From IMG/VR virus record IMGVR_UViG_3300042893_000714, positions 1-33,058 of that record: a stretch of DNA of 33,058 nucleotides; one strand, given 5' to 3'. The notes under the pieces were generated by a model, which was not told where the DNA came from, made no database searches, and was given only the letters and a program-made list of their open reading frames with translations. The translations under genes and the position numbers were made by a program. Shown here one piece after another: positions 2,838 to 30,579 of the stretch (within the stretch, counting starts at the first letter, position 1; each line of letters starts with the position of its first letter). This DNA is from a virus.

Positions 2838-2865
2838 TTGACACTGTTGTTTGATACTATATAAT
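2838..2865 (+). promoter_or_regulatory. Consensus sigma70-type promoter for the sugar genes
   Basis: A perfect TTGACA (2838-2843) is followed after 16 bases by a perfect TATAAT (2860-2865). The expected transcription start, 6-8 bases after the -10, falls at about 2871-2873. This coincides with the ATG of the epimerase gene at 2871, leaving essentially no 5' leader. The gene is thus likely read by host RNA polymerase early in infection, unlike the late tail genes around it. Confidence 0.7.
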
Positions 2866-2870
2866 AGTAT

Positions 2871-3416
2871 ATGATCGAACAACTCTCAATCCCTGGCGTT
2901 AAATTATTCCCATTAAAAAGATTATCTGACACCCGAGGTTGGTTTTCGGAAACTTTCCGCGAATCTTGGATCAACAATTATGCTATCCCAAATAATTTTA
3001 TCTTTGAATTTTGGAGTCAAAATAATAAGGCAGGTACGCTAAGAGGCCTACATTCTCAAGCAGACGATATGGTGCCCGGAAAACTGGTACAGGTATTAAC
3101 TGGCAGTATACAGGATGTTATTGTAGATGCTCGAAAAAATTCGTCAACATATGGTCAACATATTACTATAACAATTTCAGCTAGTAACCCTGTCCTTGTT
3201 TATATTCCTAGAGGATGCTATCACGGTTTTGTAACGCTCGAAGATAATACATTAGTTGGATATAAAGTAGACCAGTATCATAGTGCAGAAAAAGAATGCG
3301 GTATTGCATGGAATGATCCTACCTTAAATATAGACTGGGCAATTAAAGATAACTTAATAATTAGCAACAGAGATCAAAATAATCCAAATTGGGAATTGGC
3401 GGTTAAGTTTAAATGA
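2871..3416 (+). CDS. rfbC: dTDP-4-dehydrorhamnose 3,5-epimerase-like (RmlC family)
   Basis: A 181-residue cupin-type epimerase of normal family length. RmlC enzymes convert dTDP-4-keto-6-deoxyglucose to the L-lyxo epimer in rhamnose synthesis. Visible hallmarks are TRGWFSETFRE near residue 21, RGLHSQ with the catalytic His61, Lys71 in PGKLVQV, the PRGCYHGFVTL strand at 113-123, a Tyr136 in the YKVDQYHS segment, and Asp168 in ISNRD, matching the His-Asp pair of the family. The gene overlaps the next by four bases (ATGA), so both are translated together. It sits under its own sigma70-type promoter directly after the fibre genes, suggesting it modifies host surface sugar or decorates a virion or LPS. 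Related 3,5-epimerases acting on other dTDP- or GDP-sugars cannot be excluded. Confidence 0.85.
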   Translation: MIEQLSIPGVKLFPLKRLSDTRGWFSETFRESWINNYAIPNNFIFEFWSQNNKAGTLRGLHSQADDMVPGKLVQVLTGSIQDVIVDARKNSSTYGQHITITISASNPVLVYIPRGCYHGFVTLEDNTLVGYKVDQYHSAEKECGIAWNDPTLNIDWAIKDNLIISNRDQNNPNWELAVKFK

Positions 3417-4210
3417 AAATATTAATAACAGGCGGCAAAGGTACTGTAGGAAGTTTTTTAGCCGATAAATTACCTTATGAGATTTTAAATCCAAGTAAAG
3501 AAGAATTGGATTTATTTGACCTTAAACAAGTTAGTGACTACTTAGATTATCATAAAGTAGACATTGTTATACATTGTGCATTAACTGGTCGTAATAATTT
3601 GTTTAGTACTGATCGAGAATATACCACTGATAGTTTGTGGATGTTTAGAAACTTGTGGAATAATAAACACAAATATAAAAAACTAATCAATTTAGGAACT
3701 GCATACGAGTACGATCTTAAAAAAAATAACTGGGCGGTAACTGAAAATCAAGTGCTTGAGCATTTGCCAGATACTAGTTACGGATATGCAAAAAATCTTA
3801 TAGCAAGAGTAATAAGAGAAACAAACAATTTTTTTAATTTACGATTGTTTGGAGTATTTCACGAACAGGAAGCAGACACTCGATTTTTTAAAAAATTATT
3901 ATTGAATAACAGCATCGATGTTAACAATGATGTATATTTTGATTATATCTATCTAGGAGATATTATACCAATGATATTAACCATTATTAAAGATGAGCAG
4001 TTACACCGCGACATCAACATGGTGTATCATACAAAATATAAAATGAGTGAGCTGGCAATTCTATTCTGTCAAGTTCACGGAATTGATCCTGCGGGTATAA
4101 AAATTATAGGATGTAACGGTCTTAACCTTACAGGCGATTCACATCAATTAGATCATTATAAGTTTGACCTAACGGGATTAGAAGCCGGTTTTAAATTATA
4201 TAAGCTCTAA
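3413..4210 (+). CDS. NAD(P)-dependent sugar reductase/epimerase (extended SDR, RmlD-like)
   Basis: A 265-residue extended short-chain dehydrogenase. The N-terminus has the Rossmann nucleotide-binding motif ITGGKGTVGSF (residues 5-15, GxxGxxG type), then VDIVIHCAL near 49-57. The active-site YxxxK is seen as Tyr123-Gly-Tyr-Ala-Lys127. These features fit dTDP-4-dehydrorhamnose reductase or a GDP-fucose synthase-like enzyme, the natural partner of the RmlC-like gene just upstream, with which it overlaps by four bases. The two could carry out the last two steps of a deoxysugar pathway using a host dTDP-keto sugar, since no glucose-1-phosphate thymidylyltransferase or dehydratase is in view. The 3' end overlaps the convergent Nudix gene by 15 bases. 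The fold is certain; the exact substrate is not. Confidence 0.8.
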   Translation: MKILITGGKGTVGSFLADKLPYEILNPSKEELDLFDLKQVSDYLDYHKVDIVIHCALTGRNNLFSTDREYTTDSLWMFRNLWNNKHKYKKLINLGTAYEYDLKKNNWAVTENQVLEHLPDTSYGYAKNLIARVIRETNNFFNLRLFGVFHEQEADTRFFKKLLLNNSIDVNNDVYFDYIYLGDIIPMILTIIKDEQLHRDINMVYHTKYKMSELAILFCQVHGIDPAGIKIIGCNGLNLTGDSHQLDHYKFDLTGLEAGFKLYKL

Positions 4211-4630: not shown

Positions 4631-6000
4631 GCACCGGGCTCATACACACCTTCGTAGCTCTTTGACCACTGCCAATCACCGTCTTGATTGGACCACTTGT
4701 ATTGTATCCCTGTATATGAGTTAGTTATATAGGTAGTGCTATTAGTTGTTACACTATTGAAAACAATAATCCATTGGGTGCCATCCCACTCAATAATGTC
4801 ATTTGCATTTGCTCTTAGATCGTTACCGTTATATGTTTGCCATTCGGTAGGTCCGGTATGTTCATCGTGAGGATCTGGATTTATGTCTTCTAAAATTAAA
4901 TATCTAGCTCCTGCTAATTTAGTTCTAGGATCATATTTGTAAGGATCTATGATAGCATCAATAGTCCCCTTACCATCTATGATGGTATTAGATGGCACGG
5001 TATCGGGATCAAATTGTAAACTCATGGAACAATCATCAACGGGATTTACACTGGCATAAGCAACAATTTCAGTTCCGTCTGGTTTAACTAATCTAATTTG
5101 ACTAAGGCCGGCCCTAAACCCGCCGTATAGATCGAGTATACTATACCAATTTGCTCTATTGTTTACTTCGGACACAGATGTATAATTAGTATTTCCTGTA
5201 TTTTGTGTAGGAACAAGGGACGCGGAATTATTTAAAACTATAAGTCCGTAGTTTCCGGGAGTAACTACTGTCTTTGATGACAGCACTTTTCCATCAAATA
5301 TACTTGCAAGGGGAGTATCAGTGTAGGCGCCAATTGTATTTTGCGTTAGTATGTTTTCGCTAACAAATACATTTGAAATAATTTTTGTAATGATGCCCAA
5401 TTTTTTAACTTTTGCAGGCGGACTAATCCAAATGGGGCAAGTAAAGGCAAGATTACAGATACTAATATCTGACTCTAATCCTTGTGGAATAGATCTTGAT
5501 TCGAATGTTTGGCTGGTTAATTCAACTACGCTTAAACTAGTCCAATCGATATAATTATCTGTACTTTGTAATTCTAAGCTAGGATTAAAGAAAACAGTAA
5601 TTTGTTCCCATAGTTGTAACTTTTGATCAGTATTTGTAGTCCATAGATCTGCGGCAAACGTTACAGTGTATGGAGTGGGCATCAATCTTTCAACAGTATA
5701 GCCCGAACCTTGTCCTTTGTTTTCTCTTTCACGAATGTTTATTTTGCTAATAAATGTTGGATCTTGCATCCTTGATCTATCGTGTTGCATGTCTTTAATA
5801 TAACAGGCAATAAATGGCGCACTTTGAATAACGTTTTCGCTATTTTTAGCAAGGATCTGTGCAACCTGTCGATTCATATCTCCGTATCTTACAGGCACCT
5901 CAACAAGATTACCTTTAGCATCTTTATAACTAAAGTTACTCATCAGCCTCATAAATTGTGTCAAGTATCTTTTTACCTGACCGTCATAAAAATAATCCAT
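4612..6000 (-). CDS. 15: Tail sheath stabiliser/tail terminator (T4 gp15-like)
   Basis: The N-terminal 150 residues match T4 gp15 in pattern. They begin MDYFYDGQVKRYLTQFMRL (T4 gp15 begins with a comparable GYFYNSSFRRYATLM). There is VPVRYGD near 35-41, a strand FIACYIKDM near 63-71, and LMPTPYTVTFAADLW followed by DQKLQLWEQITVFFNP at 125-140, the best-conserved piece. gp15 caps the tail tube and sheath and provides the face that joins the neck. The protein is 462 residues against about 270 in T4; the extra length is a C-terminal extension with a Trp-rich segment (IIEWDGTQWIIVF, near residues 410-425) like modules seen in the sheath and gp14 here. Its start overlaps the gp14 stop by one base (TAATG), so it is coupled to gp14. 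Confidence 0.8.
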   Translation of the reverse strand: MDYFYDGQVKRYLTQFMRLMSNFSYKDAKGNLVEVPVRYGDMNRQVAQILAKNSENVIQSAPFIACYIKDMQHDRSRMQDPTFISKINIRERENKGQGSGYTVERLMPTPYTVTFAADLWTTNTDQKLQLWEQITVFFNPSLELQSTDNYIDWTSLSVVELTSQTFESRSIPQGLESDISICNLAFTCPIWISPPAKVKKLGIITKIISNVFVSENILTQNTIGAYTDTPLASIFDGKVLSSKTVVTPGNYGLIVLNNSASLVPTQNTGNTNYTSVSEVNNRANWYSILDLYGGFRAGLSQIRLVKPDGTEIVAYASVNPVDDCSMSLQFDPDTVPSNTIIDGKGTIDAIIDPYKYDPRTKLAGARYLILEDINPDPHDEHTGPTEWQTYNGNDLRANANDIIEWDGTQWIIVFNSVTTNSTTYITNSYTGIQYKWSNQDGDWQWSKSYEGVYEPGAWRLII

Positions 6001-7205
6001 TAATTATCCGCCTTTGGTCTAAGAGCTTTAGACAATGCTTGTTTTTCTTGTACAACCTGCCCTGCAATAGTAGCCGTTGTAGTATTATTAAAGAATGCGC
6101 TCTTTTGAGTTTCTTTAATTGGCTTACCTGGGAATAGACCTGTTGGGGATGTTTCGTCTTTTCCTAGATTGGTTATAGCCATTCGTACATTGTCTTCGTA
6201 TTTTACCCAATGATATCCGTCAAATCTAAAAAGCCTGTTTGGAAAATAGTCTGTTCTAAGGTAAAACTGCCCATTGCTAGGTCCTCCCGGGAATGAACTA
6301 CCAAATCCGTATAGAGCACCGTTTGGCGGAATACCGTCGTCTGTTAAATATCCTACATAAACCTGTTTCTCTGGAGTATTCAATATTGTACTAGCATCAA
6401 TATTTGGATCGCTAGTATCAACAGTAATTGTAGTATCAGACGCATTTACATAGTCAACTCTACCCTCAGGTGTAAGTGGTATAGAAAATAGTTGAGTATT
6501 ATCATATCCGCTCTGCGGAGAATCTAATTCTGCCTGGGCAAGAATTGCCTTGTTGATTTCAATACTCTTGTTATAGGTACTCATAACATCTCGCAATGTT
6601 TTATTTCCATCGCCTGCTGGAGCATCAAGTATTTCTTTAAATTCTTGACTATCAATTAGCGGCTGACATTTTGCTCTAATTAAATGAGGGTACCATGTCT
6701 GACTAAAACCTGCGGCAGCACGAGTAACATCTGTAATAACATAATATCGTTTTAATGCAACCATAGAATCGTCTAGGGCATATTCGTCTTTTAAATGCGG
6801 CAATTCTAAAACATCGCCTGCCATAATTTTTCTACCTAACGCATCTACAGTTGTACGTAGGTGAAATGTTATCATAATATTGTCGTTTTGTAAAAACAAT
6901 CCAAATTGACTTAGATTAAAATCAATGTCCTGCATAGTATAAATGCCGCGCAGTTGGTAAATGTCTTGATCATAGTGTCTGTCTCTGTTTTCTAAAAATA
7001 TCAAATCTTGTATTCCTAATTCAGGTACAATATTTGTATTCATAGGAACTCCGGGCGTAGATTCGCCCTCGGCAGGATTAACAGGGCCTAAATATTTGTG
7101 TACAAAAATATCGGTCCCGCCAATTTGAAATTGTTCGTTTATAGAACGATCTAGAAACTTAAAATCGTTCCCTTTTTCTGGTCGGTATAAGGATAAGCGT
7201 GGCAT
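6000..7205 (-). CDS. 14: Neck protein (T4 gp14-like)
   Basis: A 401-residue protein. Its first half resembles T4 gp14: a strand DIFVHKYLGP, then IQDLIFLENRDRHYD near residues 67-81 (T4 has SPDLIFGEDLKNKF), a segment around FNLSQFGLFLQNDNIMITFHL (T4 has FFSNFGMQVQDEVTLSI), and MAGDVLELPHLKDEYALDDS. gp14 with gp13 closes the filled head and forms the neck to which the tail attaches. The protein is longer than T4 gp14 (256 residues). The added part includes SNGQFYLRTDYFPNRLFRF and DGYHWVKYEDN, a Trp-rich surface-type module. It is the first gene of a minus-strand operon (gp14-gp15-Nudix) and is driven by the minus-strand half of the palindromic late promoter at 7212-7230, leaving a leader of only a couple of bases. 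Confidence 0.8.
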   Translation of the reverse strand: MPRLSLYRPEKGNDFKFLDRSINEQFQIGGTDIFVHKYLGPVNPAEGESTPGVPMNTNIVPELGIQDLIFLENRDRHYDQDIYQLRGIYTMQDIDFNLSQFGLFLQNDNIMITFHLRTTVDALGRKIMAGDVLELPHLKDEYALDDSMVALKRYYVITDVTRAAAGFSQTWYPHLIRAKCQPLIDSQEFKEILDAPAGDGNKTLRDVMSTYNKSIEINKAILAQAELDSPQSGYDNTQLFSIPLTPEGRVDYVNASDTTITVDTSDPNIDASTILNTPEKQVYVGYLTDDGIPPNGALYGFGSSFPGGPSNGQFYLRTDYFPNRLFRFDGYHWVKYEDNVRMAITNLGKDETSPTGLFPGKPIKETQKSAFFNNTTTATIAGQVVQEKQALSKALRPKADN

Positions 7206-7211
7206 AGTCTT

Positions 7212-7230
7212 ATATTTATGGCATAAATAT
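7212..7230. promoter_or_regulatory. Palindromic bidirectional late promoter (gp14 / gp13)
   Basis: The sequence ATATTTATG-G-CATAAATAT is a perfect 9-bp inverted repeat around one central base. Each arm contains the T4-type late octamer CATAAATA: plus strand 7222-7229, minus strand 7220-7213. The plus octamer ends 5 bases before the gp13 ATG and the minus octamer 7 bases before the gp14 ATG. In T4 the octamer lies just upstream of the start site (about -13 to -6), so both messages would begin at or next to their start codons. No Shine-Dalgarno sequence is visible on either side. Confidence 0.75.
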
Positions 7231-7234
7231 TGTT

Positions 7235-7993
7235 ATGACAGACAACGAAGCAACCAAACAAGATGTAGTTAACTACATAAAAACCATGCTCGGCGACGGC
7301 ATGATTGATATAGAACTCGAGCCGCAACATTATGATGTTGCTATAAACAGAGCTTTAGCTAAATTCCGTCAAAGAGCTCAGTCTAGTACTGAAGAAAGCT
7401 ATGGATTTTTAACATTAGAACAAGATGTTAATGAATACATACTTGCTCCAGAGGTTATGGAAGTTAGGCAAATATTTAGAAGAAGTATTGGCTCTCGATC
7501 GGGCGGCGGGGATGGCGGTACTATTTTTGAACCATTTAATCTAGCTTATACAAATACTTATTTGTTAAGTTCTAGTAATATGGGAGGGTTAGCAACATAT
7601 TTTGCATTTGCAAGTTATCAGAAACTTGTAGGAAAAATGTTTGGTAGTGAAATCGACTTTACTTGGAATGCTACTACTAAAAAACTTACAATTATGCAAC
7701 GCCCAAGAGGTGCCGAAAGTGTACTATTATGGATGTACAATTATAGACCTGATTTTACATTATTTCAAGATCCTTATGTAGGAATATGGCTTAAAGATTT
7801 TGCGTTAGCTACCTGTAAAGTAATGCTAGGAGATGCTCGTGAAAAGTTTGCAACTATTGCAAGTCCACAAGGCGGAACTACTCTAAATGGAACTGCTCTT
7901 AAAGCAGACGGCAAAGCCGAATTAGAAGTGCTAGAGCAAGATCTAATCAATTATAAAGTTGGTGGAAACCCGCTGACGTTTATAATTGGTTGA
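7235..7993 (+). CDS. 13: Neck/head completion protein (T4 gp13-like)
   Basis: A 252-residue protein. The N-terminus (VVNYIKTMLGDGMIDIEL, then HYDVAINRALAKFRQ) matches the LKDVILRRLGAPIINVEL and DCIQRALELY regions of T4 gp13. The C-terminus (WLKDFALATCKVMLGDAREKF, QGGTTLNG, then KAELEVLEQDL ending in FIIG) matches T4 gp13's WVKDYATALAKELNG, GGVTIDG and ILVG end. gp13 binds the portal side of the filled head and, with gp14, makes the neck. T4 gp13 is about 309 residues, so this form is shorter in the middle. It has no ribosome site; the late octamer CATAAATA ends 5 bases before ATG. It is transcribed away from gp14, whereas in T4 genes 13, 14 and 15 run in one direction. Confidence 0.85.
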   Translation: MTDNEATKQDVVNYIKTMLGDGMIDIELEPQHYDVAINRALAKFRQRAQSSTEESYGFLTLEQDVNEYILAPEVMEVRQIFRRSIGSRSGGGDGGTIFEPFNLAYTNTYLLSSSNMGGLATYFAFASYQKLVGKMFGSEIDFTWNATTKKLTIMQRPRGAESVLLWMYNYRPDFTLFQDPYVGIWLKDFALATCKVMLGDAREKFATIASPQGGTTLNGTALKADGKAELEVLEQDLINYKVGGNPLTFIIG

Positions 7994-8001
7994 TAAAATT
8001 A

Positions 8002-8035
8002 TTGACAAATTAATCTAAATGTAATAAATTATAGT
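8002..8035 (+). promoter_or_regulatory. Probable sigma70-type promoter for dNMP kinase
   Basis: A perfect TTGACA at 8002-8007 lies 46 bases before the kinase ATG. At the ideal 17-base spacing is TAAATT (8025-8030, 4 of 6 matches); TATAGT (8030-8035, 5 of 6) is better but 22 bases away. A ribosome site AGGGG (8044-8048) follows. The exact -10 is uncertain. Confidence 0.5.
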
Positions 8036-8053
8036 ATCACACTAGGGGATATT

Positions 8054-8680
8054 ATGATCATTGGTTTTGTCGGATTTATCGGAAGTGGCAAAGATACTGC
8101 CGCAGACTACTTGGTTAACTTTCACGGATTTCGACGTGACTCTTTTGCAAATACACTAAAAGATGCCGTAGCCGCTGTGTTTGGTTGGGACCGAACTATG
8201 TTAGAAGGGCGTACAAAAGAAGCTCGCGAATGGCGTGAACAGATAGATCCTTGGTGGGCAGAGCGGTTAAAAATGCCAAACCTAACTCCTCGCTGGGTAT
8301 TACAGTACTGGGGTACCGAAGTTTGTCGTAAAGGGTTTCATGACGATATTTGGATTGCCTCATTAGAAAATAAACTACGCAACTCAAAAGATGACATCGT
8401 TATTAGTGATGTGCGCTTTCCTAACGAGATCAGAGCAATTCACAGTGCAGGCGGAAAAGTTATTCGCGTAACACGCGGCCCTGAACCAGAATGGTATGAA
8501 GATGCAATAAATGCTAACAAAGGCGACAAGTACTTGGGTTGGGCTTTAGGCAAAAGCAAGTTAGAAAAATTAGGAATACATGCTAGTGAAACTGCATGGG
8601 TGGGCGGCGACATTGACGTTACCATTTCTAATAATGGAACAATTGACGAGTTGTTTAGTGCTATTAAAAATCAGGTGTAA
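8054..8680 (+). CDS. 1: Deoxynucleoside monophosphate kinase (T4 gp1-like)
   Basis: A 208-residue P-loop kinase. Residues 2-15 read IIGFVGFIGSGKDT, the Walker A loop of the phage dNMP kinase family (T4 gene 1). It continues ADYLV, then FANTLKDAVAAVFGWDR near 31-47, LTPRWVLQYWGTEVCR near 76-91, and a Walker B-like strand IVISDVRFPNEI near 115-126, all characteristic of this family. It phosphorylates dNMPs to dNDPs for viral DNA synthesis. It has its own sigma70-type promoter and an AGGGG ribosome site, consistent with early expression while the flanking gp13 and gp18 genes are late. Its last 17 bases overlap the convergent HNH-like gene. Length is close to the T4 enzyme. Confidence 0.9.
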   Translation: MIIGFVGFIGSGKDTAADYLVNFHGFRRDSFANTLKDAVAAVFGWDRTMLEGRTKEAREWREQIDPWWAERLKMPNLTPRWVLQYWGTEVCRKGFHDDIWIASLENKLRNSKDDIVISDVRFPNEIRAIHSAGGKVIRVTRGPEPEWYEDAINANKGDKYLGWALGKSKLEKLGIHASETAWVGGDIDVTISNNGTIDELFSAIKNQV

Positions 8681-8999
8681 GATCACCCTGTCGCCAGCTT
8701 AACCCTAGTTTATATAATATTCGCTGACAGTTAGCACAGACTGTTTTAAGATTAGTATACTTACAATTTGTCATATCACCATCTATAAAATAGACATCAA
8801 ATTGTTCTTGATATTTAGAAGTAAACCCGCATTTATCGCAGTTAGTTTTCTTTTTATATCCTGTCCGCTTCCAAAGAGGTGTCCCATCTTTTCTATTTCT
8901 AGAACAGTGGTCACAGGCAGATCTGTAAAAAGGTTTACCTTCTTTGTAATAATTAACAGCGACCGGTCTCTTTTGACATTTGTTACATATATCTCGCAT
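8664..8999 (-). CDS. HNH-like zinc-binding protein (catalytic residues degenerate)
   Basis: A 111-residue protein with four Cys pairs: C5/C8, C29/C32, C54/C57 and C88/C91. The second half follows the HNH endonuclease layout: CDKCGF, then DVYFIDGDMTN, then NLKTVCANCQ. Where active HNH enzymes have His residues (VHHIDG, and NCH at the end), this protein has Tyr/Phe and Gln. It is therefore probably a structural zinc, DNA- or RNA-binding relative that is catalytically dead or altered. It is transcribed against the kinase, from a late-type octamer GTTAAATA on the minus strand at 9037-9030, with AAGGG before the ATG. Function is unknown; its placement beside the sheath suggests late expression. 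Confidence 0.65.
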   Translation of the reverse strand: MRDICNKCQKRPVAVNYYKEGKPFYRSACDHCSRNRKDGTPLWKRTGYKKKTNCDKCGFTSKYQEQFDVYFIDGDMTNCKYTNLKTVCANCQRILYKLGLSWRQGDLTPDF

Positions 9000-9029
9000 T
9001 TCGCGCCCTTTTTAATGCCCTTTACTTTG

Positions 9030-9037
9030 TATTTAAC
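9030..9037 (-). promoter_or_regulatory. Late promoter octamer, minus strand (HNH-like gene)
   Basis: GTTAAATA on the minus strand, 30 bases upstream of the HNH-like ATG, with AAGGG as ribosome site before the ATG. It is divergent from the octamer at 9060-9067. Confidence 0.5.
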
Positions 9038-9059
9038 CTGGTAAAAAAATGAGGTAACC

Positions 9060-9067
9060 GCTAAATA
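9060..9067 (+). promoter_or_regulatory. Late promoter octamer for tail sheath
   Basis: GCTAAATA, 33 bases before the sheath ATG; the expected start site is about 6 bases downstream. Unlike gp13 or gp17, this gene keeps a leader containing a strong ribosome site (AAGGAG) about 8 bases before ATG 9101, fitting a very highly expressed protein. Confidence 0.65.
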
Positions 9068-9100
9068 TATGAAATGATAATCCATTAAGGAGATTAACAA

Positions 9101-12100
9101 ATGGCAGGTTTAACTTCAGCAGGCGTACAAGTACAAGTAATTGACGAAAGTTTTTACACGACAGCAATTCCGGGTACTGTACCACTTTTATTTGTAGCTA
9201 CAAAAGCTAATAAAAACAATCCTTCAGGCACCGCAGTTGCGCCTGGAACATTAGCCAGCAATGTTGGCAAAGTATGGACTATTACTAGTCAGCGTGATTT
9301 AGTCGACACGTTTGGCACTCCGTTATTTTATACCGACACTAGTAGCAATCCTGTTCACGGTGGAGAACTAAACGAATACGGTCTACAAGCCGCATATAGT
9401 TTACTAGGCATCAGCAGTCGTGCGTATGTTGTTCGTGCAGATGTTGATCTTTCTCAGCTTGTACAAACTTCTTCTGAACCAGTTGGCCAACCAGCCGCCG
9501 GCACTTATTGGATTGACACAGCAAGTTCAAGATTTGGAATTGAAGAATGGAATTCTTCTTCTAAGACATTTGTTAACAAAGCTCCGTTGGTCATCGATGA
9601 TGATAGTGTTGACCTTGATACTGACTTAACAGGTGCTCCTGTGTCAAGTTTTGGTAACATTGGCGATTATGCAGTAGTTGTTACCAAAATGAACACAAAC
9701 GCTGTATATTTTAAAAATTCTGATAATATCTGGGTTAAACTAGGTAGTAATGTCGAAAGTAACTTTGGTACATCCATAACTGGTGCTACATTTACTAGTA
9801 ACTGTTGGCAATCAAGCTGGCCGTTAGTTAAAGGTGCTATCGGTTCAGCCGAACCTGGTGCTAAGTTTACCATTAACGGTAGTGAAATTACATTAACTGA
9901 TGTAACACCAAATGGTATTGCAACATCTATCAATTCACAGATGCCACAATTAGGCATTGGTGCTAAGACTGACGGTGCTAATTTATTCTTATATGCAGAC
10001 GGTACAGCACAATCAGATTTGGCCGCATCACCTGATGGTAGAATTATACTAGCTGATAGAACTGCAGGAACACTAGCATCTTTAGGGTTAACAGCAAGAA
10101 CTTATGGTCCTGTATCGTTAGTAATTGCGCCCCATACACAGTTTCCTCAGTTTGGAACTCAAAATGTTGCTTCTGGTAGCATCTACTTAAAAACAACCGC
10201 ACCTAATTTAGGAGCAAGTTGGGCTGTTAAGTATTATAATGCAACTACAAGAACATGGCAAGCAGTATCTGCTCCAGTATACAGTACTACCCAACAAGCT
10301 ACAGCATCTTTAGACAACAGCGGTGGTACAAATATTCCAGCCGGAACATTCTTTGTACAAAGTAACTACAATGGTGGCAACGGCGGTGTATTAAGTCCTA
10401 GGCTTGCAGATTTTAAAGTATTGCGTAGAGCTAATTCTAGTCCTACAACTATTGCTGTTACTGTTTCTCCTACCTTAACATTTGTTCCTGGTTCAACTTT
10501 TCAAGTTGCAGAAACAGTGTCCGGAAGTAGTGCAGTTTCATCACCAAGAATTGTTACAATTACAACAAGTAGCGTTGCAGGGTTTGCGGCAGCGGTTAGC
10601 GCAGCCGGTTTAACAAACGTAACTGCAACATACGATCCTGCATCAAATGTATTAAAAATGAGTCACAAATTAGGTGGTGATTTCTTCTTGCTTGACGGCG
10701 GAAGTTTACCTTTGTTTACCGCAGGATTCTATGACACAGGTGCTAGCACTTATGCAACAAACTTATATCCAACAGGATTATATGAAGCACCTTATACATT
10801 AAAAGCAAGCAATTGGAAACCAATTGACTTGTTAACTTCAAATGTTGTTGCATCTAAGCGTACTCCTTCTACAGCACCGGCTGATGGACAATTATGGTAT
10901 AGCGCAATTCATGATGAAGTTGATATTATGGCGCACAACGGTACTACCTGGGTAGGATATCGTACTGCATACCCGGCATCTGATCCAGCAGGCCCAATTA
11001 TACGTGCAACTGCTCCGAACAAAGATGATGGACAAAGTGACGGAACTCCTTTAGTCGATGGCGATATTTGGATTGATAGCTCTGATCCAGAACTGTATGG
11101 TCAAAATATCTATGTCTGGAGCGCAAGTTTAATCAAATGGATTAAACAAGACGTAACAGATCAAACATCTCCAAATGGTTGGTTGTTTGCCGATGCTCGT
11201 TGGTCAACAAATGGTGTTGATACAATTCCGGCTAAGATTACTGCTTTACTAAGTTCTGATTATCTTGATCCAGATGCTCCTGAACCTACATTATATCCAC
11301 AAGGTACACACCTATGGAATACACGCCGTAGTGGTAACAATGTTAAGAAATATCTTGCTAATGCAATCGATATCACTGCAAACACTGGTAAGAACCTAAG
11401 ATATAATGACGAAATTATGGACGGTTCTACAGCTGGTGCAAAATATAGCACAGCACGTTGGGTTAATGCTACAGGCAACAATGAAGACGGATCCGGTAAG
11501 TTTGGCCGTCATTCACAGCGTGGTCTTGTAGTCAAGGCTTTAAAATCATTAATTGATACTAATGGTGGTGTTAGAGATACTGATACGCTGGTATTAAACA
11601 TAATTGCAACTCCGGGTTATCCAGAAGCAATTCAGAACATGGTTGGATTGAATACTGCTCGTGGACTAACAGCGTTTGTTGTTGGAGATACACCATTCCG
11701 CTTACCAGCTAATGGTTCAGCATTAAGGGCATGGGGTTCGAGTACCACTGCACTAGATAATGGTGATGCTGGCTCTGTAACTTACGATGAATATTTGGCC
11801 CTATACTATCCAAGTGGATTTACAAACGACAACTCCGGAAACAACATTGTTGTTCCGCCAAGTCACATGATTTTAAGAATGATGGCTATTAGTGATCAGA
11901 AGAGCTTCCCGTGGTTTGCACCAGCTGGCACACGCCGAGGTGGTGTTGATAACGCAACAGCAGTTGGTTACTTAATGGATGGTGAATTCCAACAATCACC
12001 GATTCCTGAAAATCTAAGAAATGTACTTCAAGATGTTAAGATTAATCCAATCTCAACAATTCCGGGTGCTGGCATTGTAGTATACGGACAAAGAACAAGA

Positions 12101-12472: not shown

Positions 12473-13108
12473 ATGGCATCATTATCAAGTTTAAAGAATT
12501 TTACAGTACCCCTTCCAGCAGGCGGGCAGAGTAATAGTGCTCAGGGCCTCTTGATGCCCAAGTTAAAATATCGTTTTAGAGTAACGTTAGAAAACTTTGG
12601 AGCAGGGTATACTACAACAGAACTAACCAAACAAGTAATGAATGTTACTCGTCCTGGTGTAAGTTTTGACAACGTTGAACTAAACGTGTACAACAGCAAG
12701 ATTAACTATGCTGGTCGTTACACTTGGGCAGATGTTACTTTAGTAGTACGCGATGACGTACAAGGTAACGTATCCAAATTAGTTGGTTCACAAATCCAGA
12801 AACAATTTGATTTCTTCGAACAAAGTTCAGCGGCAAGCGGTATTGACTATAAGTTTACCGCCAGAATTGAAATGTTAGACGGTGGTGGTGGTGGTGGTGA
12901 CGGTCCTGGCGTATTAGAAACATTTGTAATATACGGTTGTTATCTACAAAATACCGTTTATTCAAATGCCGACTATTCTAGTAGTGACCCAGTTGACATC
13001 ACATTAACTATGAAATACGATAATGCAATGCAAATTGACGGTGCCGATACTCCAAAAGGACTTGGAGAGTTTATCGGAAGAACTGTTGGATCTTTAGCTA
13101 CAGGTTAA
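12473..13108 (+). CDS. 19: Tail tube protein (T4 gp19-like)
   Basis: A 211-residue tube subunit placed directly after the sheath, as in T4. It shows the tube-fold pattern: LMPKLKYRFRVTLENFG near 27-43, TKQVMNVTRPGVSFDNVEL near 52-70, then the strand and loop INYAGRYTWADVTLVVRDDV near 77-96 (T4: INVAGDRTFDDWTVTVMND), and VLETFVIYGCYLQNT and VDITLTMKYDNAMQ at the end. Tube hexamers stack inside the sheath to conduct DNA. It is somewhat longer than T4 gp19 (163 residues). A run of six Gly is coded by a perfect GGT repeat near residue 137, probably a flexible loop. A strong terminator follows at 13121, ending the sheath-tube transcription unit. Confidence 0.9.
   Translation: MASLSSLKNFTVPLPAGGQSNSAQGLLMPKLKYRFRVTLENFGAGYTTTELTKQVMNVTRPGVSFDNVELNVYNSKINYAGRYTWADVTLVVRDDVQGNVSKLVGSQIQKQFDFFEQSSAASGIDYKFTARIEMLDGGGGGGDGPGVLETFVIYGCYLQNTVYSNADYSSSDPVDITLTMKYDNAMQIDGADTPKGLGEFIGRTVGSLATG
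12881..12898 (+). repeat. (GGT)6 microsatellite in the tube gene
   Basis: Six perfect tandem GGT codons code six Gly inside the tail tube. Slippage would add or remove single Gly residues and keep the frame. Confidence 0.9.
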
Positions 13109-13120
13109 TACATAACCAAT

Positions 13121-13154
13121 CCAAAAAAGACTACTTTGGTAGTCTTTTTTTTGG
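13121..13154 (+). terminator. Rho-independent terminator after tail tube
   Basis: AAAAAAGACTAC (13123-13134), loop TTTG, and GTAGTCTTTTTT (13139-13150) form a 12-bp perfect stem flanked by CC and GG, with a run of eight T. It ends the sheath-tube unit and insulates the sigma70-driven envelope cassette that begins right after it. The A-tract on the left arm could make it work in both directions. Confidence 0.9.
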
Positions 13155-13176
13155 CAAAATCTTTTGTCAAAAAGTC

Positions 13177-13205
13177 TTGACATAGATGCGGTTTTACCAT
13201 ACAAT
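13177..13205 (+). promoter_or_regulatory. Strong sigma70-type promoter of the envelope cassette
   Basis: Perfect TTGACA (13177-13182), a 17-base spacer, then TACAAT (13200-13205, 5 of 6). The start site should be near 13212, giving a 26-base leader with AGAGG at 13227-13231, 6 bases before the ATG at 13238. The -35 hexamer is one arm of an inverted repeat TGTCAA-N6-TTGACA (13165-13182), which could bind a dimeric regulator. Host polymerase could read this promoter without phage factors. Confidence 0.8.
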
Positions 13206-13237
13206 AGTTACATGTTCAACACACACAGAGGCTTTTT

Positions 13238-13366
13238 ATGAAGCAGTTTATTATTGGTACAATCTTTGGACTTGTTCTTGCAACTGTTGGATTTTCCGGA
13301 CTTGCACGAATTTTGGACAAAAGCGTAGACACAGTTAAATCACAATCACAGGAGTTGGCAAAATGA
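13238..13366 (+). CDS. Small single-pass membrane protein (42 aa)
   Basis: ATG at 13238 opens a 42-residue frame, MKQFIIGTIFGLVLATVGFS followed by GLARILDKSVDTVKSQSQELAK. Residues 4-24 are a hydrophobic membrane segment; the remaining 18 residues are polar and helix-prone. It is backed by a ribosome site (AGAGG) and a strong promoter, and its stop overlaps the lipoprotein start by four bases (ATGA), so it is translationally coupled to it. No known function; it is the first gene of a three-gene envelope cassette. A spanin-like or lipoprotein-partner role is conceivable but unproven. It is too short for default gene-length cut-offs. Confidence 0.75.
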   Translation: MKQFIIGTIFGLVLATVGFSGLARILDKSVDTVKSQSQELAK

Positions 13367-13974
13367 AAAAGACACTTACAGTATTAGCAATTACCACAGT
13401 TTTGGCTGGTTGTTCAACAACTAAGTCAGTTAACCCCGACGAGCCAATTCGTAATCAGAAACTGTCTACTTCGTTTGTTAGCGAAGGTATTAAGATTGAA
13501 ACAGACTGTGCTTGGTACAAGTTTGGCAAGTCAGAATGTGATGTAACTGCAATTGAATCTACTGCGGTTGCTTGGACAAACGGTGCTACGGCCGTACAAG
13601 TCGGCGAAGCCCGCAAAGTTGCTCGCATGGAGGCTAGTGCTAATGTAGCACACTTCTTAAATGAAAAGGTTACCAGTAACCGTGTAACTAATGTTATGGC
13701 CAAACACATTGAGAAGGCCAAAGACACTGTTACGTCGGACAAGAGCGCAATGACTGATAAAGAAGCTCAGCAACTTAATACAATTAATCGTGAAAATGCA
13801 AACGACACTGCTCGTACAGTTACTCGCAATATCAGTGCAAATGCTGAGGCAATTTTGAAAGGCTTCAAGACAATTAAGGAAGAGCCTGTGGGCCAGCAAG
13901 AGATTTCGGTCACTATCCGTTGGGATCTTGAATCGGATCGTGCCGCCGCACAACTTCGCAAGCGTTTCCAATGA
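13363..13974 (+). CDS. Outer-membrane-type lipoprotein, LPP20/FlgP-like
   Basis: Residues 1-17 (MKKTLTVLAITTVLAGC) form a type II signal peptide with a VLAGC lipobox; Cys17 would be lipidated. No Asp follows at +2 (Ser), so sorting to the outer membrane is expected. Residues 65-115 (AVQVGEARKVARMEASANVA onward, with FLNEKVTSN) have the alternating Ala-rich helix and segment layout of the LPP20/FlgP lipoprotein group, though similarity is only by pattern. The C-terminus has EISVTIRWDLE, a beta strand. It is coupled by four-base overlaps both to the upstream 42-residue membrane protein and to the downstream exported protein. Possible jobs are envelope modification, superinfection exclusion, or lysis support. 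Confidence in the lipoprotein is high, in the family moderate. Confidence 0.75.
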   Translation: MKKTLTVLAITTVLAGCSTTKSVNPDEPIRNQKLSTSFVSEGIKIETDCAWYKFGKSECDVTAIESTAVAWTNGATAVQVGEARKVARMEASANVAHFLNEKVTSNRVTNVMAKHIEKAKDTVTSDKSAMTDKEAQQLNTINRENANDTARTVTRNISANAEAILKGFKTIKEEPVGQQEISVTIRWDLESDRAAAQLRKRFQ

Positions 13975-14930
13975 AGCGGCTCATCTGCACACTAGCGGTT
14001 GCTATATCCGCTAGTGTGTTTGCTCAAGACAGCCAGTTAGCTCGAGTAATCGGTCGCGGCTCCACTGAAGCAGAGGCTCTTGCAGATGCACAACGTCGAG
14101 CCATTGAAGAAGTATCCGGCATTGTAGTGCTTTCTACATTGGAAGCAAATAAGAAAAAATTAATCAAAGAAGAAACTGCCAACTATAGCGCCGGCTATGT
14201 TGACAAATATGAAATTACTTCTACCTACAAAAAGAAAAACGAAGTAATTGTGGAGGCTAATATTTGGGTAAAGCCGAGTAACATGGCTAATCATAAAGTT
14301 AACACCGGCAAAGATCAAAAAACAATTGATGGTAATCGACTAGGCACACAGCTAGAATCATTTCTAAATGAACGAGGTCAGGCAGACAATTTGTTCAAAA
14401 CATTATTAGATGATTATCCTCGGAAGGCGTTCTCTATTAAACAAGGACAACCTGAATTTAGGATTAACCCCGATAGGACATTAGTTATAACGGTGCCGTT
14501 TGAGTATGGCTGGGATAGACGATACGTTACATCTTTAAAAGAAGCTATGTATGCAGTCGGTGATACTGTTCGATCTGACTATGCAATTACTGTTGCTCTA
14601 AAGAAAGATCCCAGTGATTGGATGACCGATGTAAGACTATATTACGTCAACGATCGTAATCTTTATTTGAAGATTACCCAAACACTTGTTCGACAGCCCG
14701 GTGTTTATGCAACTATATATGATGACGAAAACACGCCTATCTATAAACAATGCGGTTCATATCAGGGGGCATTCATTGGCGATAATCGATATGCTTCGTT
14801 TCATATCACCGGCAATACAAGGTATACAACCGAGTTTGAAATTAAGATTAGAAACAATAATCCTGTTAGGGATAAATTAAAATCAGCTAATAAGATTGAA
14901 TTATCAGTTGGCGACCCTTGTCCTAATTAA
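13971..14930 (+). CDS. Exported protein with FlgT-N/LPP20-like domain
   Basis: A 319-residue protein with a Sec signal peptide (MKRLICTLAVAISASVFA, cleavage expected before Gln19). Residues 23-105 (ARVIGRGSTEAEALADAQRR, AIEEVSGIVVLSTLE, then YVDKYEITSTYKKKNEVIVE) follow the layout of the N-terminal domain of flagellar FlgT and the wider LPP20 group: a Gly-rich strand, an Ala-rich helix, a central loop, then a strand ending in VxANIWV. The rest is beta-rich, with two Cys (near QCGSYQG and the GDPCPN end) that may form a disulphide. It overlaps the lipoprotein gene by four bases. FlgP and FlgT are neighbours in bacterial flagellar outer-membrane systems, so the pair looks like a captured envelope-protein set. 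A periplasmic or surface location is inferred. Confidence 0.7.
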   Translation: MKRLICTLAVAISASVFAQDSQLARVIGRGSTEAEALADAQRRAIEEVSGIVVLSTLEANKKKLIKEETANYSAGYVDKYEITSTYKKKNEVIVEANIWVKPSNMANHKVNTGKDQKTIDGNRLGTQLESFLNERGQADNLFKTLLDDYPRKAFSIKQGQPEFRINPDRTLVITVPFEYGWDRRYVTSLKEAMYAVGDTVRSDYAITVALKKDPSDWMTDVRLYYVNDRNLYLKITQTLVRQPGVYATIYDDENTPIYKQCGSYQGAFIGDNRYASFHITGNTRYTTEFEIKIRNNNPVRDKLKSANKIELSVGDPCPN

Positions 14931-14946
14931 ATCAATAGTATATACT
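14918..14946 (+). promoter_or_regulatory. Possible sigma70-type promoter for the methyltransferase gene
   Basis: TTGTCC (14918-14923, 4 of 6), 17-base spacer, TATACT (14941-14946, 5 of 6). The start site would fall near 14953, inside the left arm of the terminator, so transcripts begun here would lack part of the hairpin and escape termination. Moderate support only. Confidence 0.35.
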
Positions 14947-14949
14947 AAC

Positions 14950-14982
14950 AAGACGCATGTATGTAAATATATGCGTCTTTTT
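14950..14982 (+). terminator. Rho-independent terminator after the envelope cassette
   Basis: AAGACGCATGTAT (14950-14962), loop GTAA, ATATATGCGTCTT (14967-14979) pair over 13 bp with one G-U, followed by T residues. It closes the cassette opened by the promoter at 13177. Confidence 0.85.
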
Positions 14983-14998
14983 CATGACGGAGAACATT

Positions 14999-15646
14999 TT
15001 GCCACAACAACTATACATACACGCTGAAGAATTATATGGTCGTCCAGAGGTACTTAACTACGTCGGTAAATTAAAAGAAACAACACCTAATTTTACTTTA
15101 ATAGATATTGGTGCTAGTCATAATCCATTTAATCCGAATTTATTAACTCACACATTTGATCTTCGTCCAAATAATTTAGAAAATAAACATTCTTTTTTGG
15201 GTGATATGAACTCTTACGAAGATTGGGTTCAGATTTTTGAATACGTTGAACAACACGGAAAGTTTGATTTTTGTAATTGTACACATACCTTAGAAGATAT
15301 TGCCTACCCAATGGCCGCTTTAAAATACATGCCGCGCATTGCTAAGGAAGGATTTATTGCAGTACCTAGCAAATATTACGAACTACAGTACAGAGATCAA
15401 TACAGGGGCGGAATACATCACCGCTGGATATTTGACAACAAAAATGGAAAACTTATTGGGTATCCAAAGATTAACCTAATAGAAACATTAACCTGGCACC
15501 CACACGGTGTTACTATAGAAGAAAATGCAGGTACAGAACTAAGGATGTTTTGGAAAGATTCTATAGATTATGAAATTATTAATAATGATTATTTAGGACC
15601 CACAGCAGAAGCCGTTGTAAACATGTATCAAGGATTACTTCCATAA
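14999..15646 (+). CDS. SAM-dependent methyltransferase-fold protein
   Basis: About 215 residues from a TTG start at 14999, chosen because GGAG (14989-14992) lies 6 bases before it. In-frame ATGs at 14957 (inside the terminator stem) and 14984 (no ribosome site) are less likely. The protein has a class I methyltransferase layout: FTLIDIGAS (motif I, residues 32-40), an acidic residue after the next strand (FDLRP), and FDFCNCTHTLEDI followed by MPRIAKEGFIAVPSK, equivalent to motif IV and the following helix-strand. Such proteins can methylate small molecules, sugars or proteins. It lies between the envelope cassette and a leaderless late structural gene; target unknown. Its Asp/His-rich middle (YRGGIHHRW) is unusual for standard methyltransferases. 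Confidence 0.6.
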   Translation: MPQQLYIHAEELYGRPEVLNYVGKLKETTPNFTLIDIGASHNPFNPNLLTHTFDLRPNNLENKHSFLGDMNSYEDWVQIFEYVEQHGKFDFCNCTHTLEDIAYPMAALKYMPRIAKEGFIAVPSKYYELQYRDQYRGGIHHRWIFDNKNGKLIGYPKINLIETLTWHPHGVTIEENAGTELRMFWKDSIDYEIINNDYLGPTAEAVVNMYQGLLP

Positions 15647-15678: not shown

Positions 15679-16920
15679 ATGTCAAAAATGTTTACTAACT
15701 TCCTAAGTGATTTCGCCGGCGGTCTATTTGCCGATAGTGGCTATCTTAGAGATTATCAACACGCTAGTCGATTATATGTCGATAGTGCCTACGGGATGGC
15801 TCCAAAAGCAGGTTGGAGTTACTTTGTTGAAATTGGGTTAAACCCAGAAATGGCTCTAGGACAATCGGGCGCTTTTAAAGCACTTGACGAAACTTGGTAT
15901 AAAAAGACTAGGGGTAAACTGGGTCTTGTTGCTAAAACGTGCGATCTCCCAAGATTTACCATTGGTCACGAAACATTAAATCAGTACAATAAAAAAACTG
16001 TTATACAAAATAAGATTACCTATAATCCTATTAATATAGTATTCCATGATGATATGAATAATATGACCACTAATTTGTGGAAAAATTATTATCAATATTA
16101 TTATTCAGATTCGAGATATCAAACAGCTATAAGTGGAGGAATAACCTCCGGCCGCACGGCATCATTACCAGAAGCATACGCTCCCTTTTCGGTTATTCGC
16201 GATTCAACTGGCATGGGTTCCGGCGGTGCGTTAACTCCTTGGCGAGGTTATAGTTATGGGTTAAACAACTTGCAAACTGTTCCTTTCTTTTCCTTCATTA
16301 GAATATTTTTGTTGAATAGAAGAACATATACTTCTATGACACTAATTAATCCAAAGATAACAGAGTGGTCCCACAGTCAATTAGACAACACTGGTACTAA
16401 AATGCTAGAGAATAAAATGACTATAGCATACGAAGCCGTTTACTACGATACAAACAACACTAAAGTTACAAAAGGTCAACCTGGATTCAATGAAATACAT
16501 TACGACCAAACAAAGAGTCCACTACGTACTGGAGGGGCAGGCGGCCTTGGTGGCCTATTAGGCGGTGCCGGAGATCTAATGGGCAGTATTGGAGATGGTT
16601 TAGAAAATGGATTTACTGTTGGTAGCCTTCTTGGAATGGCTAAAGACACAAAAAATCTTGTTAATAATTATAAATCAGTAAGAGAAGATGTTAAAAAGAA
16701 TGGAGGCCAGGCACTAAAACGTGAACTGTATAGTATTGGTGCAAGTACGTTTAGTGATGCCGCTAGAGGCACCGGGGCATATGAAGATACCGGTGGTCTA
16801 AGAAGCGTTACTGATAAACAATTTGTCATACCCGGAGTTGGCTCGGGTCGTGTTAATCTTAACGAAGCTGGTACCGGCGGTGTTAATCCCAATGTGGCGA
16901 CACCGTCTGACGCGAAATAA
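15679..16920 (+). CDS. Tail tube/baseplate-tube-like virion protein
   Basis: A 413-residue structural protein. Residues 75-160 (LVAKTCDLPRFTIGHETLNQ, then KTVIQNKITYNPINIVFHDD) look like the tube-fold strand pair of gp19-type proteins: a strand, a Pro turn, a beta-hairpin, then a helix with LWKNYYQYYY. A further strand follows near 255 (MTIAYEAVYYDTNN). Near 285-320 is a Gly-rich stretch (GGAGGLGGLLGGAGDLMGSI), and the C-terminus is polar. This fits a baseplate tube or tube-initiator component (the gp48/gp54 role in T4), conserved in marine T4-like phages, but I cannot align it confidently with either. It has a late octamer 5 bases before the ATG. Followed after 15 bases by a small conserved gene and gp4. 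Confidence 0.5.
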   Translation: MSKMFTNFLSDFAGGLFADSGYLRDYQHASRLYVDSAYGMAPKAGWSYFVEIGLNPEMALGQSGAFKALDETWYKKTRGKLGLVAKTCDLPRFTIGHETLNQYNKKTVIQNKITYNPINIVFHDDMNNMTTNLWKNYYQYYYSDSRYQTAISGGITSGRTASLPEAYAPFSVIRDSTGMGSGGALTPWRGYSYGLNNLQTVPFFSFIRIFLLNRRTYTSMTLINPKITEWSHSQLDNTGTKMLENKMTIAYEAVYYDTNNTKVTKGQPGFNEIHYDQTKSPLRTGGAGGLGGLLGGAGDLMGSIGDGLENGFTVGSLLGMAKDTKNLVNNYKSVREDVKKNGGQALKRELYSIGASTFSDAARGTGAYEDTGGLRSVTDKQFVIPGVGSGRVNLNEAGTGGVNPNVATPSDAK

Positions 16921-30288: not shown

Positions 30289-30579
30289 ATGGGATCGCTT
30301 ACTCCGGGAGCAACACTCATTTATGAACGAGTAGGGGATACTGTTTATTCTCGAGAGGCCGGATCTATCGAAAGGACTGTTGTGGGATACGATTACAATC
30401 GAGATCCGCTAGATCATAGAAATTATATGAGCGATCCAAAAGAAGCGCAACTTTGGAAAGATATTAACCAAGCGGCATTGGACAATGAAGAATTGCAAAA
30501 AGCCTTAGAACGTGTTAAAATAATATATTATCTAAGTAAAAAAGATCAACCTGAACCGCCAATGTGGCATCCAGTATAA
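30289..30579 (+). CDS. Conserved small protein of unknown function (96 aa)
   Basis: Not recognised. It has a beta-like N-terminal half (GATLIYERVGDTVYSREAGS, RTVVGYDYN), then a helix (EAQLWKDINQAALDNEELQK) and a Pro-rich end (KDQPEPPMWHPV). It sits three bases after the previous gene and one base before the next, so it is part of the same operon. Confidence 0.7.
   Translation: MGSLTPGATLIYERVGDTVYSREAGSIERTVVGYDYNRDPLDHRNYMSDPKEAQLWKDINQAALDNEELQKALERVKIIYYLSKKDQPEPPMWHPV

Follow-up and report, generated by a model that had tools for sequence, protein, structure and literature searches.

Organization of the A-B-C unit and its insertion site

The DNA analyzed here (the window, 33,058 nucleotides) was recorded in IMG/VR as a 33-kb fragment and comes from a jumbo myophage whose tail sheath is related to the sheaths of Atu_ph07, Phosso, and PA5oct. 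On its plus strand, positions 13123 to 14979 form a self-contained unit consisting of a terminator, a single promoter, three genes (A, B, and C), and another terminator. The first intrinsic terminator (13123 to 13150; −13.2 kcal/mol, z score −4.7, then a T run) follows tail tube gene 1 and is also present in L002 to L004; z scores compare the RNA fold energy with that of shuffled sequences. Behind it lies a sigma70-type promoter, TTGACA-17-TACAAT (13177 to 13205), matching the consensus at 11 of 12 positions. Gene A (13238 to 13366) encodes a 42-aa membrane protein with one hydrophobic segment, gene B (13363 to 13974) a 203-aa outer membrane lipoprotein, and gene C (13971 to 14930) a 319-aa exported protein. 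ATGA overlaps join A to B (13363 to 13366) and B to C (13971 to 13974), and the second intrinsic terminator follows C (14950 to 14979; −17.4 kcal/mol, z score −6.3). An earlier note had described this arrangement of terminators, near-consensus promoter, and ATGA-joined genes, all of which were found in place, and its description of the products as a single-pass 42-aa protein, a lipobox lipoprotein, and an exported protein was confirmed from the sequence of each.

The pattern TTGACA-N17-TAYAAT occurred once in the window against 0.03 occurrences expected, and approximately 1% of random 120-nt stretches reach a score of 11/12. The starts of structural genes in the window mostly scored 9/12 or lower; scores of 10 to 12 were seen at the dNMP kinase, the RmlC-like gene, and a small open reading frame at 30289. 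Both hexamers were conserved in all six close relatives checked, L002 having one change in the −35. In most lineages and sites inspected, a 10-11/12 promoter with a 17-nt spacer was found some 60 nt before A, or before B in the absence of A, even when the unit stood elsewhere in the genome; L029, L035, and some others had a weaker one. Among the structural genes of the window, another host-type transcription unit was observed at 2838 to 4210, where an RmlC-like epimerase gene (2871) and a nucleotide-sugar epimerase gene follow a perfect 12/12 sigma70-type promoter.

The unit is bordered on the left by the gene for tail tube protein 1 (12473 to 13108, plus strand; phrog_4542, E = 1e-50) and on the right, beyond a methyltransferase-like gene, by that for tail tube-like protein 2 (15679 to 16920, plus strand; phrog_4542, E = 2e-10). 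The methyltransferase-like gene (14999 to 15646, plus strand), identified by a weak Methyltransf_11 match, was called from 14957, inside the second terminator; a start at ATG 14984 or TTG 14999 is more likely, the L029 homologue beginning with MPQQLYYF. In seven related phages (L271 to L274, PA5oct, Atu_ph07, and Phosso) the two tube genes are adjacent and the site is empty. Because the genes lie side by side in four closer relatives and three isolates, A-B-C and the following methyltransferase gene, which likely arrived with it, can be regarded as an insertion, a conclusion close to established. The site is filled in the window clade, L029, L035, and L011, the last without A, and the methyltransferase gene was present at the filled tail sites whose sequence covered that position, and empty sites lacked it. 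In L029, tail tube gene 1 is separated from gene A by five minus-strand genes (5450 to 9730), inserted at the same site as the unit.

The empty site in seven relatives supported the proposal that an independent unit for envelope proteins had been inserted among the tail genes. The term moron, also used in that proposal, fits the position of the unit, which has its own promoter and terminator and fills a site that is empty in close relatives. It does not fit its history, since most relatives hold B-C elsewhere with conserved neighbors and A is often unlinked. Like phage moron cassettes and exclusion proteins such as Cor and P22 SieA, the unit has its own promoter and terminator, lies among late genes, and encodes envelope-targeted products; unlike them, it was found with no prophage context, its proteins are unrelated to theirs, and diverged phages retain it at other sites.

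Predicted localization and folds of B and C

The lipobox of B in the window is LAGC with Ser at +2. A lipobox was found in 80 of 81 B sequences, with Ser, Ala, or Gly and never Asp at +2, the exception (L006) being truncated at its 5' end. B thus carries an outer membrane lipoprotein signal, a feature of the LPP20/FlgP family, and this localization is as good as established. Cys49 and Cys59 were present in 16/16 rows of the first alignment. The AlphaFold model of B (pLDDT 71) comprises a strand (60 to 71), a helix (77 to 102), a helical insertion (106 to 166), and two further strands (169 to 175 and 180 to 188), and its best PDB match in Foldseek was Helicobacter pylori Lpp20 (5ok8; probability 1.00, E = 4.7e-3).

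FlgP, Lpp20, and FlgT share an SHS2-like fold, and ring formation is associated with an insertion that separates the helix from the second strand (PMC12222027). The predicted insertion in B falls exactly at this position, but it is modeled as helical rather than as the ring-forming beta-hairpin of FlgP; B may nevertheless form a ring. B resembles Lpp20 (HP1456) and Campylobacter jejuni FlgP in being an outer membrane lipoprotein with a modeled SHS2-like beta-alpha-(insert)-beta-beta core, and differs from them in its helical insertion of about 65 residues. It also differs at the sequence level: Pfam LPP20 was not among the families listed for 39 B members, and hhalign of B against the host FlgP gave a probability of 1.9%, i.e., no similarity. 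The LPP20/FlgP-like character ascribed to B in the earlier note was accordingly supported by the modeled structure and not by sequence-level family membership.

C of the window has a signal peptide with the cleavage site SVFA-QD. Its homologues alternate between a plain signal peptide, as in the window, and a lipobox (e.g., L007, L022, and L082), the latter being found in 43 of 77 relatives. The N-terminal domain matched Pfam LPP20 and FlgT_N about equally weakly, with FlgT_N detected in 7 of 50 C members (best, 4e-5) and LPP20 in 10 of 50 (best, 0.0016; 2e-4 in a smaller set). FlgT_C was not among the matches listed for the 50 members, and the same search detected it weakly in the host FlgT. 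The best PDB match of C was Vibrio FlgT (3w1e; E = 4e-5, probability 0.92), with a TM-score of only 0.2; HP1454 was also matched, and three uncultured phage proteins in BFVD matched C over its whole length. Cys261 and Cys317 were conserved.

C resembles FlgT and HP1454 (4kzs) in being exported, with an LPP20-like first domain and a multidomain layout, and the H. pylori HP1454 gene shares an operon with an LPP20 protein, as C pairs with B. It is set apart by a beta-rich, sandwich-like C-terminal part without a FlgT_C match, by lipidation in about half of the relatives, and by very fast evolution. The FlgT-N-like domain previously proposed for C was in keeping with the structural match, and in sequence LPP20 fitted about as well. 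Neither model proved unrelated to LPP20/FlgT, and the fold assignments of B and C are moderately supported. A profile search of PDB sequences returned nothing relevant.

Distribution and genomic neighborhoods

Relatives of B were found at 124 IMG/VR loci, on contigs of up to 367 kb, and 80 of these loci, chosen for holding B, were kept. Searches of 84,980 prokaryotic genomes, INPHARED, and PLSDB (plasmids) gave no relative of B; for INPHARED the queries were the window's B and C, the C of L008, and the B of L049, all without relatives there. By sequence comparison, B and C form a phage family absent from PHROGs, and no described phage protein family was matched. C directly followed B at every one of the 77 IMG/VR loci whose sequence was long enough, the other four being contig ends, and this coupling is to all appearances fixed. 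B was single-copy in 20/20 contigs. A, which was not used for choosing loci, was present in a single copy in every one of 15 B-bearing contigs tested, lying immediately before B in some and 7 to 33 kb away in the others with the distance checked. The expectation that the trio would travel together was thus upheld, with A often unlinked. Neither A nor B was present in 30 contigs, all fragments, picked by tail sheath or terminase.

At approximately 50 loci the gene order was a ~500-aa inner membrane protein, B, C, and ClpX, with genes for bS21, Hsp20, ClpS, SprT, and ClpP nearby and DnaK or SPFH in some. In L008, L049, L060, L040, and similar loci, the region from about −3 to +9 kb of B is a jumbo phage proteostasis island encoding ClpX, bS21, Hsp20, ClpS, a SprT-like protein, ClpP, and, only in some, DnaK and an SPFH (Band 7) lipoprotein. 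The ~500-aa protein (L008, 8378 to 9940, and homologues) contains a long coiled coil, and its C-terminal domain is related to a virion structural protein (phrog_11591) encoded at 6000 to 7205 on the minus strand of the window. Some other B-C loci adjoin ClpP. In L017, L030, L033, and L034, A-B-C lies in a radical-SAM/SDR island; throughout these jumbo phage loci the unit is surrounded by several radical SAM/SPASM and SDR-like proteins and small repeated families. The tree of B plus C required five changes between genomic arrangements, which implies repeated moves of the unit. An unannotated homologue of the 42-aa protein A was also observed in cyanophage S-SRM01 (NC_070963.1 at 73834; L086, 2501 to 2629), directly behind a small SPFH-like "protease" gene.

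Divergence of C and possible functions of the unit

Between the window and L002, protein identity was 92% for the tail tube, 95% for A, 96% for B, and 95% for the methyltransferase, but 48% for C. DNA identity was approximately 85 to 94% over A-B, dropped at the first codons of C to 44 to 69%, and recovered after C, with about 77 to 87% in the methyltransferase gene. Among 298 pairs with 70 to 99.5% identity in B, C was less conserved than B in every one, the median identities being 78.5% for B, 81.2% for ClpX, 78.0% for the membrane protein, and 40.2% for C. B was under strong constraint (dN/dS of ~0.04). For C, dN/dS was ~0.14 to 0.2 where computable, well below 1, and dS was raised or saturated, so allele exchange probably contributes to the divergence. 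The divergence of C is not by itself evidence of positive selection; relaxed constraint or allele exchange could account for it. It is nonetheless the strongest functional clue, and the constant pairing of B with a C that changes far faster than its neighbors suggests a device by which the infected cell's surface is altered or guarded. New here are the faster change of C than of B, the constant outer membrane lipobox of B, and the similar promoter before the unit at most sites inspected.

Our best reading, a tentative one drawn from sequence comparisons, is that A-B-C modifies the envelope or excludes superinfecting phages through an outer membrane-anchored periplasmic complex with a fast-changing partner. 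The unit would be transcribed from its own host-type promoter, probably early, to judge by promoter type only. B, with a predicted LPP20/SHS2-type fold, and C would form an oligomeric scaffold under the outer membrane, with A as a putative inner membrane anchor or regulator. Less surely, the variable part of C might touch a variable partner, either a component of the host outer membrane or the apparatus with which competing phages bring in their DNA; such contact would imply that the complex alters the envelope so that superinfecting phages are excluded or a receptor is blocked. PADLOC returned nothing for A to C, and a defence system was rejected as their identity on that ground; known exclusion proteins were likewise rejected, the matches to them being confined to lipoprotein signal sequences and no longer than a signal peptide. 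Among the roles listed earlier, superinfection exclusion and envelope remodeling came out as the most likely, and lysis and interference with flagellar rings gained no support.

Against exclusion, it can be noted that ClpX follows the unit in many relatives and that other proteostasis genes lie close by, an arrangement equally in keeping with envelope quality control. It is conceivable, if somewhat doubtful, that B and C, with A and the ~500-aa inner membrane protein, keep the envelope stable or under surveillance over the course of a long infection, in partnership with phage ClpX, ClpP, ClpS, DnaK, Hsp20, and SPFH proteins. The gene order seen at the ~50 loci favors this, as does the finding that FapH, a FlgP partner in H. 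pylori, protects the outer membrane barrier (PMC11756786). Maintenance leaves the fast evolution of C unexplained, however, and B has its own promoter in many relatives, and the unit lies away from proteostasis genes both in the radical-SAM islands and in the window. That the unit is a neutral passenger or a structural accessory of the virion tail, as its place between two tail tube genes in the window might suggest, is scarcely credible in view of the signal peptides, the other genomic locations in most relatives, and the strong constraint on B.

Flagellar motors are known to contain LPP20/FlgT folds that form disks and rings, and the fold matches to Lpp20 and FlgT would accord with B and C copying the FlgP-FlgT pair and disturbing or occupying the disk or ring around the host flagellum. 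The DnaK of L049 is nearest to those of Comamonadaceae and other Burkholderiales (72 to 77%), which suggests hosts of this kind for the relatives, and 3 of 18 genomes reached from the DnaK search had a FlgT-like gene after one for an LPP20 lipoprotein, in the B-C order; one such Comamonadaceae pair adjoins a sigma54 regulator. Flagellar mimicry is still improbable: the host is a guess and LPP20 was found in just those three genomes, hhalign of B and C against Comamonadaceae FlgP and FlgT gave no similarity, the relationship of both folds to flagellar proteins is no more than distant, C lacks a FlgT_C match, and the modeled insertion of B is not the FlgP hairpin. A FlgT_N search of the 18 candidate-host-like genomes gave no match, with an equally silent control, and was uninformative. 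More improbable yet is a role in lysis or release, with A holin-like and B and C as unusual spanin-like parts. The combination of a small membrane protein, a lipoprotein, and an exported protein is suggestive of it, as are weak Rz-like matches of B to phrog_1275, mainly over the lipoprotein signal region. The promoter is of host type rather than for late expression, however, A is unlinked in most of the related phages, and no endolysin adjoined any locus examined. Nor do the proteins resemble a spanin pair: A is a 42-aa protein whose tail is short, B at 203 aa has a folded core and far exceeds known spanins in length, and the partner of B is no inner membrane coiled coil. As noted before, no holin, endolysin, or classic spanin is in view, the window proteins scanned with PHROGs having included no lysis gene, although this says little because the record is a 33-kb fragment.

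Within the favored reading of envelope modification or exclusion, a more specific and speculative version, which we consider unlikely, is a periplasmic ring or disk, built by jumbo phages beneath the outer membrane from the LPP20-fold lipoprotein and carrying a rapidly diversifying recognition protein that chooses which phages or host components are blocked. If true, phages would be making an envelope structure of a new class, one whose specificity can be exchanged. A fixed pair carried by phages, one member of it hypervariable, would tie the LPP20/FlgT fold to phage competition or to control of the host envelope.
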